Shown: positions 22,675 through 28,622 of the stretch, piece by piece
Layout: each line of letters starts with the position of its first letter
Numbering within the stretch: the stretch's first letter is position 1
Assembly: GCA_020845805.1 (NCBI GenBank)
Contig: JADLFD010000115.1
Span: 1-41,544, forward strand
Direction: 5' to 3'
Length of the DNA: 41,544 bases
Source of the DNA: Verrucomicrobiales bacterium
Lineage (GTDB): Bacteria; Verrucomicrobiota; Verrucomicrobiia; Limisphaerales; CAIMTB01
The notes under the pieces: generated by a model
What the model saw: the letters and a program-made list of their open reading frames with translations, nothing else
Database searches by the model: none
What the model was told of the DNA's origin: nothing
Program-made: the position numbers and the translations under genes

Positions 22675-24219
22675 TTACTTGGGGAAGCCGGCGCGACGAA
22701 GGAGCGCTTCGATGTCGTCGGCGCTGGCCTCGACGCGGTCGCGGTGCAGGCGGAGGTCGTCCGCCCGGACTGGGTACCAGGGCCGGCGGGTGGCATCCAG
22801 GAGCCCGGCGACGTCGATCTCGGCCAGCACGGCATCGACTTGGAGTCGGAGTTCCGACGCGCTGCCTCCGTGGCGGGCGGCGGCGGTGCAGGCTCGGATG
22901 CGGGGTGCGAGAAGGGAGTGGTTGCGCAGCAGGTACCCGTGGGCGGCGCCGTTTCCGAGGCGGCGCGTGGTCTCGCCGTGGATCACCACTCCGAAGTACA
23001 GGCGCGCGATCTCGGTGAAGGCGTCGAAGTCGGCGAAGCGCGCATAGAGCGCCGCCAGGAAGTCCTCCAACGCCTCGGCGTCGGCGGTGGTCTGACGCGC
23101 GTAGTCCTCGAGGGCGGCCGGGGCTGGGGAGGGCTGGCGGTCTGAGGTGGCGAGGGCAAAGGCTTGGGCGAGGCGTTCGATGCCGAGGAGGGAGAGCGTG
23201 AAGCCCGAGGAGAGCATGGGATCGACGAAGGCCGCGGCCGACGGCAGCAGCGCCCATCCGGGTCCCGCGGCGGGGGCCACACGAAAACCGAGCTGCGGGG
23301 TGTGCACGAACGGGTGCGTGGGGGTGGCCGGTTCGAACTGACGTCGTACGCTGGGCAAGTGGTCCAGGAGTCGTTCCCAGGCCGCGGCGCCGTCGGAGAG
23401 CCCGAGTTGTGCGGCACGCGATTCGGTGGCGGCCACGCCGGCGCTGGTGACGCCGTTGCGGAAGCGGAGCACCCAGATCCAGCCCCCATCGAAGACGTGG
23501 TGGACCGCGGCATCGTCGACCGGGAACGGTGCCTCAGCGAGCCCGGCGTGGAGGGGTAGATCGGAGAGTCTCTGCACGTCGCGGAAGTGAGTGAAGAGCG
23601 CCTGCGTCGGGGGCATGGAGGCCAGGGGGGAGATCTCGAGTCCCAGCCGGTGCGCCAGCACTCCGGCCCGGCTGCCGGCATCCACGACGAATGCTGCTTC
23701 GGCGGTGGTGCGGGAGTCCGGCCGGCCGAGCTCGAGTGCGAATCCGTGCGCGGTGCGCGTGAGTGCGCCCAGTTCGCATTGGTCGCGGTAGTCGACTCCG
23801 AGTCGAATGGCTTCCGAGACGAGGTGCGCGTCGAACTCGGGGCGATACCAGTGGGTATCGGCGATCTCATCGTGGGGACTGGCGGCGACGAGGAGTTGAT
23901 CGGACCGGTCCGCGCGGTTCGCGAAGGGTTGGCCGGGCGGGTGATGGTAGAACGCGAATCCGCGTTTCAGTCCGCAGCTGATTTCCGGATGGGCGCGGAT
24001 CCAGGTGCCCCACTTGGCGAAGGGCGCGAGAAAGGGCAGGTCGTAACGTTGAGCGAGCTCCAGCCAGAGCAGGTCGGCCAGGGGGGTGGAGGATTCGCCG
24101 ATGGCGAAGCGCGGATGCCGGTGCCGTTCGACGAGGAGCACCGTTCGGCCGAGTCGCCGCAGGATCATCGCGAGCAGCGAGCCGGCGAACCCGGATCCGA
24201 GGATGGCGACGTCGTACAT
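22675..24219 (-). CDS. FAD-dependent oxidoreductase, tryptophan-halogenase-like
   Basis: A 514-residue flavoprotein. The FAD-binding GxGxxG (AILGSGFAG, about residues 5-13) opens the protein, followed by HPRFAIGESSTPLADLL, close to the GESxxP motif of the halogenase/geranylgeranyl-reductase group. FVVDAGSRAGVLA marks the second dinucleotide-fold segment, GGWIWVLRFRNG resembles the WxWxIP region of halogenases but lacks the exact motif, and LPSAAAFVDPMLSSGFTLSL matches the DP-containing FAD motif. The catalytic Lys of tryptophan halogenases was not recognised, so I call a halogenase-like monooxygenase or reductase, not a proven halogenase. It is divergent from the hydrolase-metacaspase gene across 146 bases, where shared control could lie. 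Confidence 0.88.
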   Translation of the reverse strand: MYDVAILGSGFAGSLLAMILRRLGRTVLLVERHRHPRFAIGESSTPLADLLWLELAQRYDLPFLAPFAKWGTWIRAHPEISCGLKRGFAFYHHPPGQPFANRADRSDQLLVAASPHDEIADTHWYRPEFDAHLVSEAIRLGVDYRDQCELGALTRTAHGFALELGRPDSRTTAEAAFVVDAGSRAGVLAHRLGLEISPLASMPPTQALFTHFRDVQRLSDLPLHAGLAEAPFPVDDAAVHHVFDGGWIWVLRFRNGVTSAGVAATESRAAQLGLSDGAAAWERLLDHLPSVRRQFEPATPTHPFVHTPQLGFRVAPAAGPGWALLPSAAAFVDPMLSSGFTLSLLGIERLAQAFALATSDRQPSPAPAALEDYARQTTADAEALEDFLAALYARFADFDAFTEIARLYFGVVIHGETTRRLGNGAAHGYLLRNHSLLAPRIRACTAAARHGGSASELRLQVDAVLAEIDVAGLLDATRRPWYPVRADDLRLHRDRVEASADDIEALLRRAGFPK

Positions 24220-24365
24220 GGGGGAACGCGATTCTTGCTGAGGCAGGGGTGGGCGCCAGCGGAAACCGGGGGTCGGGAGGCGCCGGCTTGCTTTGGCTTC
24301 GTCACTTCCCGAAAGAATGGGCCCACCGTCCCGCTCATTGACCGCTGCCGCACCAAGGAGACCCT
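24220..24365. promoter_or_regulatory. Divergent intergenic region
   Basis: This 146-base gap separates two genes transcribed away from each other and must hold both promoters. I see no confident -35/-10 pair. GGCGCC occurs twice, flanking a 22-base purine-rich block around 24251-24280, a possible operator. The right end carries the strong AAGGAG ribosome binding site of the metacaspase gene. Confidence 0.4.
24355..24360 (+). promoter_or_regulatory. Ribosome binding site of the hydrolase-metacaspase gene
   Basis: A perfect AAGGAG five bases before the ATG at 24366, the clearest ribosome binding site in the window; it fixes the start and suggests the gene is well translated. Confidence 0.8.
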
Positions 24366-26411
24366 ATGCCTGACGAAATCCACCTCGGAGGAAACCCGGC
24401 CGAAGCGCGTCGGGTGTTGAACCAGCTTGCGCGCCGGCTCGAATCCGGCTGGAGCATTCGCGGGGTGCGGGCGGGCGAGAGTGCGTCGGGGGGATTCGTG
24501 CTGGATTTGGAAGCGGGAGAGAGTGTGGATCCCGGGTCACGGGCGCCCGAAGCCGGGTGGGGCGTGGCGAAGGATCCCGGGGCGCGGCCGCTGCGGGTGC
24601 TCTGCCTGCATGGAGTGAACCATCTCGAGGACCACGCGCCGAGCGAGGGGCCCTGGCTGGAGGCGATCGGCACGGCCTTGCGTGAGTTGGGGGCGCCGGC
24701 GCCCGAGGTGCGTTGGGTGCGTTACAACGATTTGTTTCGCAACGCGGAACTGAACGCGGCGGATGTGGCGTCGGCGATGGTGAAGCTGGGGGCGGCGAGT
24801 GTCTGGCATGGGCTGGGGGATTGGTTCGGCGTGCGTGCCACGCGCGGGGGGCGATCGTTGAACGACACGCTGCGGTGGACCGCGGGGATGGTGGTGCAGT
24901 GGTCGGAGAACGAGGCGTTGCGCGCGCGGTTGCGCGGCGTGCTGCGCCGGGCCCTGACTGCGCGCGGGTGGCGGCCCGACCTGTTGCTGGCGCACAGCCT
25001 TGGATCGTTGATCGCCTATGACACCCTGGCACGACCGGCGAACGCGGGTCTTTGCGAGGGACTGACGCTGGTGACCTTCGGATCCCAGATCGGGCACCCC
25101 TCGTTGCGCGCGCTTTTCGGCGGTCGGATTGTGCCGATCCCGCGTTTACGGCGTTGGTTTCATCTCTACAACCGGAACGACCACGCTTTTACCGCGCCCC
25201 TCTCGGTGCGGTTTCCCTCGGAGGACGTGGCGCGGTTTCATCAGTGCGACTGCCAGTTTGACCTGCCGGACGACGCCTTGAACCACGATGCCACGGCCTA
25301 TCTGACGCACCGCGAAACGCGCCTCACGCTGTGGTGGCACGCGGCGGTCGAAGTGGCGGGAGCAAAGGCCCGCGCACGGGGCGCCCTGACGAGACTGCCC
25401 TCGGGTTCGAAGAGCGTGGTGCCCGCCGCGCGCCGTGCGGTCGCACGCCGGTTCGAGCGCGCCTTGTTGGTGGGGATCTCACGGTATCCGCAGCCCGAGT
25501 CCTGCCTGGAAGGGTGCGTGAACGACGTGTTCCTGATGAGCGAACTGCTGCAGCGGCGTGGCTTTCGCGCGGAGAACGTGCGCGTGCTGCTGGATGAGCG
25601 CGCGACCGCGGCGTCCATTCGCGACCGGCTGGAGTGGTTGCTGGACGGTTCCGACGACCAGCAGGATCGCGTCTTTTATTTCGCCGGGCATGGCGCGCAG
25701 ATCCCGGGGTACGGCGCACACGAGGTCGTGGATCGTCGGGACGAGTGCCTGGTTCCCTATGACTTCGACTGGAACGATCGGCGGTCGGCGATCACCGACG
25801 ATTGGTTTGCTGAGTTGTACAGCCAACTGCCGGCGGGAACGCGTTTCCTGACCTTGTTCGATTGTTGTCATTCGGGAGGGATGACGCGACAGGGCGGGAA
25901 TCGGGCGCGGGGGTTGATTCCGCCGGACGACATCCGCCATCGGCTGCGGCAATGGTCGGGAGGCGGGGAGGGGTTTACGGAACGGCGGTTGGGGGACGTC
26001 TCCCTAACGCGCGAACGGCGGGGGCGGAAGGATCTCTACGGGGAGCAGGGGGACTTGCGCGGGTTGGGGCGGGCGGTGGGCATCCGGCTGGCGCCGCGGG
26101 AATTCCGGCGGGCCAAGCGTGAGTTTGGGCATTTTGGCCCGTACATGCCGGTGATCCTCGAGGCGTGCCAGGAGCATGAGTTGGCGAACGAAGTGCGGGT
26201 GGGGGCTCGATCGCACGGAGCGTTCACGTGGTGTCTGGGGGAGGTCCTGCGGCAGTGGCCGGCGGGGCGGGCGCTCACCTGGGCGGCGCTGGCGGAGCGG
26301 GTGGCGGAAGCGTTACGGGAAAGAGGTTACCGGCAAACCCCCGCGTTGGTGTGTCCCACTCAGTTGCGAGACACGCCGGTCCCGTGGAAACCCGAGCGTC
26401 GGAGGCGATGA
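24366..26411 (+). CDS. Alpha/beta-hydrolase-metacaspase fusion protein
   Basis: A 681-residue protein with two enzyme-like halves and no signal peptide or membrane helix, so probably cytoplasmic. Residues about 76-330 look like a lipase-type alpha/beta-hydrolase: LRVLCLHGVNH (oxyanion loop), nucleophile elbow LLLAHSLGSLIAYDTL (Ser211), probable acid Asp272 in LYNRNDH and His307 in NHDATAYLTH. Residues about 380-670 are a caspase/metacaspase (peptidase C14) domain: RALLVGISRYP, ECLEGCVNDV-like start, VFYFAGHGAQIPG (His442), DECLVPYDFDW, and LFDCCHSGG (catalytic Cys501 by family pattern DxCHSG). Both active sites look intact. The region after the Cys carries a long basic insert (about 515-580) of unknown role. 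Known metacaspases cut after Arg or Lys; the substrate here is unknown. Its stop lies one base from the convergent aminotransferase stop. Confidence 0.88.
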   Translation: MPDEIHLGGNPAEARRVLNQLARRLESGWSIRGVRAGESASGGFVLDLEAGESVDPGSRAPEAGWGVAKDPGARPLRVLCLHGVNHLEDHAPSEGPWLEAIGTALRELGAPAPEVRWVRYNDLFRNAELNAADVASAMVKLGAASVWHGLGDWFGVRATRGGRSLNDTLRWTAGMVVQWSENEALRARLRGVLRRALTARGWRPDLLLAHSLGSLIAYDTLARPANAGLCEGLTLVTFGSQIGHPSLRALFGGRIVPIPRLRRWFHLYNRNDHAFTAPLSVRFPSEDVARFHQCDCQFDLPDDALNHDATAYLTHRETRLTLWWHAAVEVAGAKARARGALTRLPSGSKSVVPAARRAVARRFERALLVGISRYPQPESCLEGCVNDVFLMSELLQRRGFRAENVRVLLDERATAASIRDRLEWLLDGSDDQQDRVFYFAGHGAQIPGYGAHEVVDRRDECLVPYDFDWNDRRSAITDDWFAELYSQLPAGTRFLTLFDCCHSGGMTRQGGNRARGLIPPDDIRHRLRQWSGGGEGFTERRLGDVSLTRERRGRKDLYGEQGDLRGLGRAVGIRLAPREFRRAKREFGHFGPYMPVILEACQEHELANEVRVGARSHGAFTWCLGEVLRQWPAGRALTWAALAERVAEALRERGYRQTPALVCPTQLRDTPVPWKPERRRR

Positions 26412-26412
26412 A

Positions 26413-27621
26413 TCAGAGCGACGCGAGGGCGCGATGCAGGTCGGCGTCGGGGTTGTAGAAGTGGGGGGAGAACCGCAAGTAGCGCGTCCCGGCGCGGTCG
26501 GTGCGCAGGGAGCAGACGACGCCCTGTTCGGCGAGGCGCTGGTGCAGGGCGGGGAGGTCGGTGTCGGTACGGGTGCAGGACACGATGCCGCTTTGGTGAA
26601 GCGCGGGGGCGTCGGCGCCGGGAACGTTCCAGCCACGCTCGAGCAGCGCCGGCACGAGGAGGGCGCGCTTGCGGAGCAGTTCGCTGGCGATGGCCTCGAC
26701 CCCGACTTCGAGGAGCAGTCCGAACGCGGCGTGAAGTCCGCAGAGTCCGAGCATGCCGTGACTGCCGGGCTCATAGCGTGCGGCGCCGGTGCGGAAGGCG
26801 AGGGTGTCGCGGGCGACGAAGTCCGGGCAGCGCACATTGTGCCACCCGAAGCTGCGCGGCCGGAGGCGTTCGTGCCAGGCGCGGCGCACGTAGAGGAATC
26901 CGGCGCCGCAGGGGCCCAGCATCCACTTGTGGGAATCGGCGGCGATGAAGTCGGCGTGGGCGGCGAGCGTGGGGAAGGCGCCGAGGGTTTGGATGCCGTC
27001 GACGCAGAACGCGATGTCACGGGCGCGGAGTTCGGCGGCGAGGGAAGCGAGGTCGAGGCGCCAGCCGGTGATGAAGTGGCAGGAGGCGAGCGCGACCAAC
27101 CGGGTGCGGGAGTCGAGGGTGGCGAGCACGTCCTCGAGCCGGATTTGGCCGAGGGCGCCGGGGGTGACCCGGCGGGCTGCGACGCCCTGCTCGGCGAGGC
27201 TCATCCAGGGGTAGACGTTGGAGGGATAGTCGTCGGCGTAGAACACGACGTTGTCGCCGGGTTGGAAGGGGAACCCGGCGGCCACCACGTTGAGGCCCTG
27301 GGAGGTGGGGCCGACGAGGGCGATTTCATCAGGGCTGGCCGCGATGAGTTGAGCGGCGCGGGCGCGCGTGTCGCGGACCAGGGAGTCGAGGACGGGCCGT
27401 TCCTGATCGTCGAGGGTGGCCTGTTGCGCGTAGTGCGCGATGGCATCGGCCACGCGTCGCGGCAGCGGGCAAACGGCGGCATGGGCGAGGAAGGCGCGTT
27501 CGGTGCAGACGGGGAACTCACGACGGCGAAGGGCTTCGTCGTGGAGGAGCGGATGGGCGCGCAGGGAGGGGGTGGGATTGGGCCTTGTGGGGGGCGGCCG
27601 GGCAGGGGGGGCGGGAGTCAC
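26413..27621 (-). CDS. Class V aminotransferase (cysteine desulfurase-like fold)
   Basis: A 402-residue pyridoxal-phosphate enzyme. The cofactor Lys is about residue 232 in [24 protein letters not shown] binds the phosphate, [13 protein letters not shown] supplies the Asp that holds the pyridine ring, and [16 protein letters not shown] is a family segment. The subset with DSHKW and HNV resembles isopenicillin N epimerase-like and cysteine-desulfurase-like proteins; no reactive loop Cys of true desulfurases is obvious, so the substrate is open. No ATG falls after the upstream gspF stop; the GTG at 27621 overlaps that stop as GTGA, giving coupled translation. A longer start at 27675 would reach into gspF and is less likely. 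Confidence 0.85.
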
Positions 27622-28622
27622 TCCATATCCACGATGCCGCCGTAGAACCCGAGCCAGAACGAGACGATCTGCCATACTGCCGCGAGCATGACCGCACCGT
27701 AGAGCAATCCGGTGAGGAGTCCGGCGGCGATGCGCATGAGCCGCAGGCCTTCATCCTGGTAGTGTTCGCTGAGGCGCGGCAGGGCGTCATCGACTCGGCC
27801 GGACACCTCGCTGGTGGCATAAATGCTGGAGAAGTGGGGCGGGAACGCGGCGCTGGTGAGGAGGATATCCCCGGCGGATTCGCCGCGGTCGAGGCGGGGG
27901 ATCCAGGTGTCGATTTCGCGTTCGAGCGCGGGGGATCCGCTGGCGGCGGCGGCGGTGGGCCAGGCGCGGGTGGCAGGGACGCCGGCATTGAAGAGGGCGT
28001 CGAGCGCAAGGCTGAACCGGGAGAGCGCGATGGCGCGGCGGGCTTTGCCGAGGATGGGGACGAGTCGCGTGACGGATTCGAGGAGCGAGCGCCAGGTACG
28101 GCCCTGGCTGTCCTGGGAGGCGAAGATGACCAGGATGGCGACCACGTAGAACGGAGTGAAGAACGCGGCTTTGCGTGAGAGGAACAGGAGGACGTTGCCG
28201 GTCTGGACGAGATCGATGAGATGACCGACGGGCATGATGAGGAACGCGACGTGGAAGAGCAGCGCGGGGTAGGCGAGTCCCATAAGGATCTGGCGCATGA
28301 GCCGCGCGCGGTCCTGGTACGCCTTGGAAAGGATGCGGCAGACGGCATCGAGGCGGCCGCTTTGTTCGCCGGCGCTGAGCAGGGCGACATCGAACTCGGG
28401 GGCCCAACCGCCGAGTGAGTGCACGGCTTCATCGAGAGTGCTGCCGCTGCGCAGACGTTCGAGGATGGCCGAGATGGGCTGGCGCAGGCCCACGGCGGGC
28501 GGGTTGCGCTCGAGGAGTTCGAGGGTGCGGATCAGCGGGAGCCCCGAGGAGACCGACGAGGCGATCTGATGATAGAAGTCAGAGCGGGCCGCGAGTTGCG
28601 TGGGGAAGAAGATGAAAGCCAT
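27618..28622 (-). CDS. gspF: Type II secretion system F family protein (GspF-like)
   Basis: A 334-residue inner-membrane protein of the GspF/PilC family, the platform protein of type II secretion and type IV pili. Two helical T2SSF domains (about residues 14-135 and 205-325) carry the repeated pattern: [22 protein letters not shown] and [32 protein letters not shown] and [16 protein letters not shown]. Membrane helices lie near 112-135, 150-172 and 300-328. No GspE ATPase, secretin or pseudopilin gene is in the window, so it is an orphan here. It is 37 bases after thioredoxin and overlaps the aminotransferase start, suggesting one transcript. It is shorter than typical GspF (about 400). Confidence 0.9.

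Follow-up and report, generated by a model that had tools for sequence, protein, structure and literature searches.

A rare and dispersed family of bacterial proteins that joins an alpha/beta-hydrolase to a metacaspase

Introduction

What might a bacterium gain by placing an alpha/beta-hydrolase and a metacaspase-like peptidase in a single polypeptide? The question is raised by one gene in a 41,544-nucleotide stretch of a Verrucomicrobiales genome, the whole of which we call the window. Bacterial caspase-like proteases are increasingly seen to activate a partner enzyme in antiviral defence, and no switch of this kind would be simpler than a single chain that carries both protease and hydrolase and has no partner genes. 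A preliminary description of the locus had proposed this pairing of domains, together with a function as a proteolytic switch or two-step effector. Here we ask whether the fusion is genuine, how widely it occurs and how its two halves might work together.

Results

The fusion gene occupies positions 24366..26411 of the + strand, on which all features of the protein described below also lie. Its frame runs from an ATG at 24366 to a TGA at 26411, contains no internal stops and encodes 681 amino acids; the frameshift that the preliminary description had allowed for is therefore absent. The gene is preceded by the Shine-Dalgarno sequence AAGGAG (24355..24360, +). When the 12 window genes compared were ranked by anti-Shine-Dalgarno pairing energy, this sequence came first (-8.5 kcal/mol), in agreement with the earlier claim that it is the best ribosome binding site in the window.

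The C-terminal half (residues 365-666; 25458..26363) is assigned unambiguously to peptidase C14, with a type II metacaspase fold. It matches PF00656, Peptidase_C14, at E=9.8e-27, its 94.6 bits exceeding the 21.4 cut-off, and the same profile is matched by all 30 family members. Sequence comparison finds plant type II metacaspases (E 7e-23) and fold comparison finds AtMCA9 (Foldseek E 1.8e-17); by both routes, MCA9 and MCA4 are the closest solved structures. The order of p20 followed by p10 is kept, PF00656 covering residues 365-666 and residues 596-670 aligning with the p10 of AtMCA9. The catalytic His442 (25689..25691) aligns with the SGHG of solved metacaspases, and the catalytic Cys501 (25866..25868), in the motif D-C-C-H-S-G-G, stands opposite the catalytic Cys of AtMCA4; each is invariant in 30/30 members.

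The S1 pocket of metacaspases comprises C92, D95, S156 and D211 in TbMCA2 numbering (PMC4357240). Of the corresponding positions in the fusion protein, C384, D387 and D499 (C92, D95 and D211) are invariant in the 30-member alignment, and the S156 position is Ser in 29/30, being Ala440 in the window protein. Because the acidic pocket residues are kept, we predict that the metacaspase half cleaves after Arg or Lys. Metacaspases are usually Ca2+-dependent by way of D173, D189, D190 and D220 (TbMCA2 numbering; PMC4357240, PMC9622860). In the fusion family this canonical site is incomplete. Position 220 is Arg or Lys in 30/30 members (R in 27, K in 3); in the window protein it is Arg508 (25887..25889), which in the printed alignment lies opposite the Asp of GGLID in AtMCA4 (ligand list from PMC4357240). 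Position 173 is Asp in only 23/30, and two registers are possible for D189/D190, D478 being invariant in each. Canonical Ca2+ activation of the fusion protein is thus unlikely, given the Arg/Lys at position 220 and the variability of position 173. A non-canonical site does not exclude membership of the metacaspases, since many of them, but not all, depend on Ca2+ (PMC4357240).

The N-terminal half is a less familiar object. No Pfam model scored above its cut-off for this half in the window protein or the 30 members, and a few members gave weak matches to Abhydrolase_6, Ser_hydrolase or DUF676 (best E 0.006). An AlphaFold model of residues 74-330 (24585..25355), built with an alignment of 30 relatives, has a pLDDT of 86.9 and forms an alpha/beta sandwich. 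Foldseek matched it to three PDB entries below E=0.001 and to nothing else: the NirD domain of Nir1, the DDHD domain of Nir2 and a lipase from A. fulgidus, all with probability 1.00, E about 3e-4 to 8e-4 and TM 0.37-0.45. Cutinases and the B. subtilis lipase were further, weaker fold matches. The order expected of an alpha/beta-hydrolase, a nucleophile-elbow Ser followed by Asp and then His, is present in the sequence: the predicted nucleophile Ser211 (24996..24998), in A-H-S-L-G, the predicted catalytic acid Asp272 (25179..25181) and the predicted catalytic base His307 (25284..25286), all invariant in 30/30. An oxyanion-type HG motif is formed by His82-Gly83 (24609..24614; H in 28/30, G in 30/30). 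Model and motifs together clearly place this half in the alpha/beta-hydrolase superfamily; its subfamily is less certain, the scores being moderate, and the label 'lipase-like' reflects fold and motif. Because the half stays below every Pfam cut-off, surveys of Pfam architecture would be blind to the fusion family.

On each point that the preliminary description had offered as a way to overturn it, the evidence went the other way. Both folds were matched, C14 by Pfam profile and the hydrolase by AlphaFold model and Foldseek; the Ser and the Cys fall on catalytic positions; and the two enzymes lie in one intact 681-residue frame. Its five candidate residues are correctly placed, and S211, D272, H307, H442 and C501 are invariant across the 30 aligned members (alignment A1).

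Two parts of the protein lie outside the enzymatic domains. Residues 1-72 (24366..24581) form an N-terminal extension, predicted from the model to be beta-alpha-beta-beta; alignment A1 leaves it outside the conserved part of the family, which starts near residue 74. A second copy of the extension was sought across the window genome and none was found, so we rejected its identification as an effector-associated adaptor. Different-looking N-terminal extensions are also borne by the relatives L005 and L078. The inter-domain linker (residues 331-363; 25356..25454) is a candidate self-cleavage region. In the family alignment it contains 25% Arg+Lys and 6% Asp+Glu, and its net charge across the family is +0.19 per residue, whereas stretches drawn at random from these proteins give -0.02 +/- 0.02, a difference of about 10 SD. 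Its pLDDT is mostly below 50, including residues 342-360. By sequence and model, the linker appears variable, largely disordered and strongly basic, which would suit it to Arg/Lys-specific metacaspases. Linkers of a basic kind are frequent among high-GC bacteria, and they need not be cleaved. The fusion protein is predicted to be without a membrane segment, because no 19-residue stretch exceeds a Kyte-Doolittle-type score of 1.51.

The preliminary description had proposed looking for the same fusion elsewhere. Our scan of GTDB genomes found it at 36 loci, most spanning residues ~72-675 in one frame with 36-47% identity, in at least five phyla: Verrucomicrobiota, Planctomycetota, Pseudomonadota (alpha, beta and gamma), Acidobacteriota and Gemmatimonadota. 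Culturable relatives occur among Pseudomonas, Sulfuriferula and Bradyrhizobium. In the tree, the window protein pairs with the Verrucomicrobia relative L005 (97/92); the window protein and L032 have long branches, and the phyla are interleaved, as would be expected for transfer between lineages, though this is not proof. The fusion or a variant occurs in 3/388 Verrucomicrobiota genomes, about 1% of those sampled, and a fourth has a stand-alone, more distant C14 gene. With seed genomes included, the metacaspase subfamily is found in 6/294 Planctomycetota, 1/369 Gammaproteobacteria, 2/337 Alphaproteobacteria and 1/129 Acidobacteriota; in the window's own genus, one of five genomes carries the fusion gene. 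Judged from these sequences, the fusion is a real, rare and dispersed family. We found no published description of it in the open-licence literature.

Some records are less regular. The gene is broken or split in L021, L038 and L040, which may reflect assembly errors or decay, and L021 and L022 bear MAG titles (Klebsiella and Bordetella, respectively) that look untrustworthy. L079 is a remote member of low similarity with its halves in the same order. In the genome that also carries L026, a protein (L071:985-3411, - strand) joins a C14 domain to a different N-terminal part, in which there is a GHSAG motif; it seems to be a second, unrelated-looking hydrolase-caspase fusion. Carriage by plasmids or phages was rejected after searches of plasmid, phage and viral-contig records: no plasmid match reached 80% of the protein, and among the matches listed the caspase half alone was covered; just one phage record had a caspase match; and the viral contigs yielded three stand-alone caspases.

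How did the gene come to its present place? In two congeners (L106 and L107), a class V aminotransferase gene and an FAD-dependent halogenase/monooxygenase gene follow each other directly on one strand, with spacers of 27 bp in L106 and 8 bp in L107, and the upstream genes for type II secretion F and a thioredoxin are shared with the window. In the window, the same two flanking genes have the fusion gene alone between them, on the opposite strand, within an inserted segment at 24220..26412. The surrounding row, type II secretion F, class V aminotransferase and FAD halogenase/QhpG-like monooxygenase (22675-28622, - strand), is kept in both congeners. The fusion gene is therefore best seen as a one-gene insertion, with loss in the congeners less likely than gain because their spacers are tiny. 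Terminal repeats at the insertion edges were rejected, the two boundary stretches sharing no repeat of 8 bp or more. Association of the fusion with the class V aminotransferase appears coincidental: the neighbouring copy in L032 is only 28% identical, and the congeners' counterpart of the window gene has no fusion gene beside it.

The neighbours of the fusion elsewhere, which the preliminary description had also suggested inspecting, differ between lineages. Clustering of the genes within 6 kb of the loci revealed no broadly shared family, and a conserved partner gene was rejected on this basis; an ABC-ATPase cluster spans five clades at varying distances, and the other neighbour families reach three clades at most. 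Single-gene insertion and the lack of a broadly shared neighbour within 6 kb indicate a self-contained unit, and the fusion protein appears to work alone. At the window locus we saw no defence-island context, and the sole PADLOC match was the generic 'caspase' model.

Several individual neighbourhoods are recorded here for their own sake. A stand-alone caspase gene directly adjoins the fusion gene downstream in L011, L013 and L040 (Bradyrhizobium) and upstream in L032 (Chthoniobacterales); such pairs could form a cascade. A 1430-aa patatin-containing protein is encoded in the neighbourhood of L026, and a GDSL lipase near L033 and L034. Beside the fusion in L005 and L019, members of two phyla, are related genes without a Pfam match (L005:4256-5665 and L019:7948-8981), which have a lipoprotein-like start and the motif 'RASQVxPxYPLTEDLxPGDxFL'.

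Two natural variants have exchanged their hydrolase. L073:1625-4843 (G125:C82; 1072 aa) has an N-terminal PF04185 phosphoesterase of the phospholipase-C type (E 2e-71), and its alpha/beta-hydrolase half has lost Ser, Asp and His. L074:5287-7998 (G257:C78; 903 aa) carries a C-terminal trypsin behind the metacaspase half, and its hydrolase half has lost the nucleophile Ser. Both keep the metacaspase dyad and a conserved RGxxPPxDIRHR block. An extra hydrolase in the chain is thus found in 2/2 Ser-less members against 0/37 others (Fisher p=0.001, a value that is only indicative, as both come from one phylum). The gain of another hydrolase where the lipase Ser is lost points to a need for hydrolytic output. 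Because these members nevertheless retain the dead hydrolase fold, a structural or inhibitory role for it is suggested as well. They offer a ready comparison for finding what the protease half controls.

Discussion

In summary, the fusion is real, and its support goes beyond what the preliminary description, made from sequence alone, could offer. The reading that we favour, tentatively and at somewhat less than an even chance, is that both enzymes act in the cytosol as one protein, in which the protease gates the hydrolase: a lipase or esterase effector under metacaspase control. A signal of stress or infection would render the metacaspase half active; it would then cut after Arg or Lys in the linker, either its own or that of a sister molecule, and the hydrolase half would be freed or relieved of inhibition. 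The freed hydrolase would attack ester bonds, most likely in membrane lipids, and the producing cell would then stop growing or die. Linker cutting, hydrolase release and action on lipid esters are steps that we infer.

Several observations lead us to favour this gated hydrolase: both active sites are invariant in 30 relatives from at least five phyla; the acidic S1-pocket residues are retained; the linker is basic, by about 10 SD, and poorly modelled; L073 and L074 swap the hydrolase partner and keep the metacaspase dyad; the VMAP systems discussed below pair a caspase with an alpha/beta-hydrolase gene; the gene was inserted singly and lacks a broadly shared neighbour; and no membrane segment is predicted. 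The linker, the partner swaps and the published pairing make the proposed proteolytic switch or two-step effector likelier than before, and the joint mechanism plausible; that joint function, the substrates of the two halves and, for this protein, the role in death or defence attributed to metacaspases are still what we infer. Counting against the gated hydrolase are the moderate similarity to known lipases (E 3e-4, TM about 0.4), the frequency of basic linkers among high-GC bacteria, the degenerate halves of L073 and L074, which may be structural or inhibitory rather than effectors, and the absence of defence-island context with a generic PADLOC match. A fuller version would be a new, self-sufficient single-gene death or defence module, in which a Ca2+-independent metacaspase frees an attached phospholipase by cutting the basic linker, with spread across phyla as a one-gene insertion and an effector that can be exchanged among alpha/beta-lipase, phospholipase C and trypsin; taken as a whole, that combination is doubtful.

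The main rival reads the same variants the other way round: the alpha/beta half would be a regulatory or inhibitory prodomain or a ligand sensor, sensing through the hydrolysis of, for instance, an acyl or ester signal, and the protease would be the true effector, which cuts other cell proteins. Retention of the hydrolase fold without its catalytic residues in L073 and L074, beside a conserved metacaspase dyad and RGxxPPxDIRHR block, speaks for this; the metacaspase half is also the better conserved (52% mean column identity versus 43%), and the altered Ca2+ site requires another trigger. However, the hydrolase triad is strictly kept in all 30 members of alignment A1, and in both members without it a further hydrolase has joined the chain; we regard this rival as possible but rather improbable.

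The genomic setting bears on a second alternative, a housekeeping or metabolic bifunctional enzyme, such as an esterase coupled to a protein-maturation protease, with no part in death or defence. The metabolic-type flanking genes, the lack of defence neighbours and the merely generic caspase match of PADLOC would fit such an enzyme, but its patchiness (one of five genus genomes and about 1% of sampled Verrucomicrobiota), its lone insertion into a gene row that is unbroken apart from it and the variation of its neighbours by lineage would not, and we consider it unlikely. A toxin delivered to other cells by a type VI-like or similar route, and processed there by its own metacaspase half, is very unlikely. 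Many delivered effectors are two-enzyme polypeptides that include lipase modules, and in L008 and L009 the fusion adjoins a downstream papain-like C70 protease gene and, directly upstream, genes for large proteins without a Pfam match (L009:1-5976, 1353 aa, which also has no PADLOC match, and L008:13-1923, ~635 aa); against this, we recognised neither a signal peptide nor PAAR, VgrG, Rhs or an immunity-like partner, and the neighbours are not shared. A join of two unrelated genes by chance or in assembly, for which a draft genome of 840 contigs is the only argument, has a negligible probability given the intact frame and the full-length fusion, with both active sites conserved, in 36 independent records.

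How does the gated hydrolase that we favour compare with known systems? Each half resembles proteins of known structure. Arabidopsis MCA9 and MCA4, type II metacaspases, have in common with the fusion the p20, long spacer, p10 and S1-pocket acids, but they lack a fused hydrolase and have Asp220 (TbMCA2 numbering) where the fusion has Arg or Lys. Nir1 NirD, Nir2 DDHD and the A. fulgidus lipase are the closest solved folds to the hydrolase half, although the similarity is structural and weak (TM about 0.4), with no sequence match.

Among whole systems, a metacaspase with a lipase-class hydrolase in the same chain is known from Chitinophaga pinensis, whose protein has GDSL lipase and amidase domains (Asplund-Samuelsson et al. 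2012, PMC3501461). This one described case differs in its GDSL fold, its extra amidase and its lack of an alpha/beta-hydrolase; the survey of prokaryotic caspase homologues notes it, and not the present architecture (PMC3501461). In Canu caspase-nuclease defence (PMC12799240), a caspase-family protease likewise switches on a second hydrolase, but that hydrolase is an MBL-fold nuclease in a separate gene, accompanied by Ig-like domains; neither domain was recognised in the 681-aa protein or its scanned immediate neighbours, and membership was rejected. EACC1-associated caspases (NCBIfam NF047832; Kaur et al. 2020) are also bacterial caspases coupled to variable domains. Here the EACC1 partner was not recognised, the effector is N-terminal and NF047832 scored 46.9 bits against a cut-off of 140, so this membership was rejected too.

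The closest parallel lies in the VMAP-ternary conflict systems, in which a caspase domain is 'always' found with a neighbouring alpha/beta-hydrolase gene (Kaur et al. 2020, eLife 9:e52696, PMC7159879). There the same two enzyme superfamilies are coupled and proposed to act together, each from its own gene, side by side and linked to VMAP, MoxR and vWA proteins, whereas here they form one polypeptide that stands alone. Membership of these vWA-MoxR systems found no support: no VMAP, MoxR or vWA gene occurs among the scanned neighbours of the fusion; of the 22 genomes searched, all carrying the fusion or a variant, 2 have VMAP-C above its cut-off, in each case away from the contig of the fusion; and the match in the window genome is below cut-off and on a different contig. 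By analogy at the level of superfamilies, and with no claim to membership, the fusion is best read as a one-gene, one-polypeptide version of the hydrolase and caspase pair of the VMAP systems.
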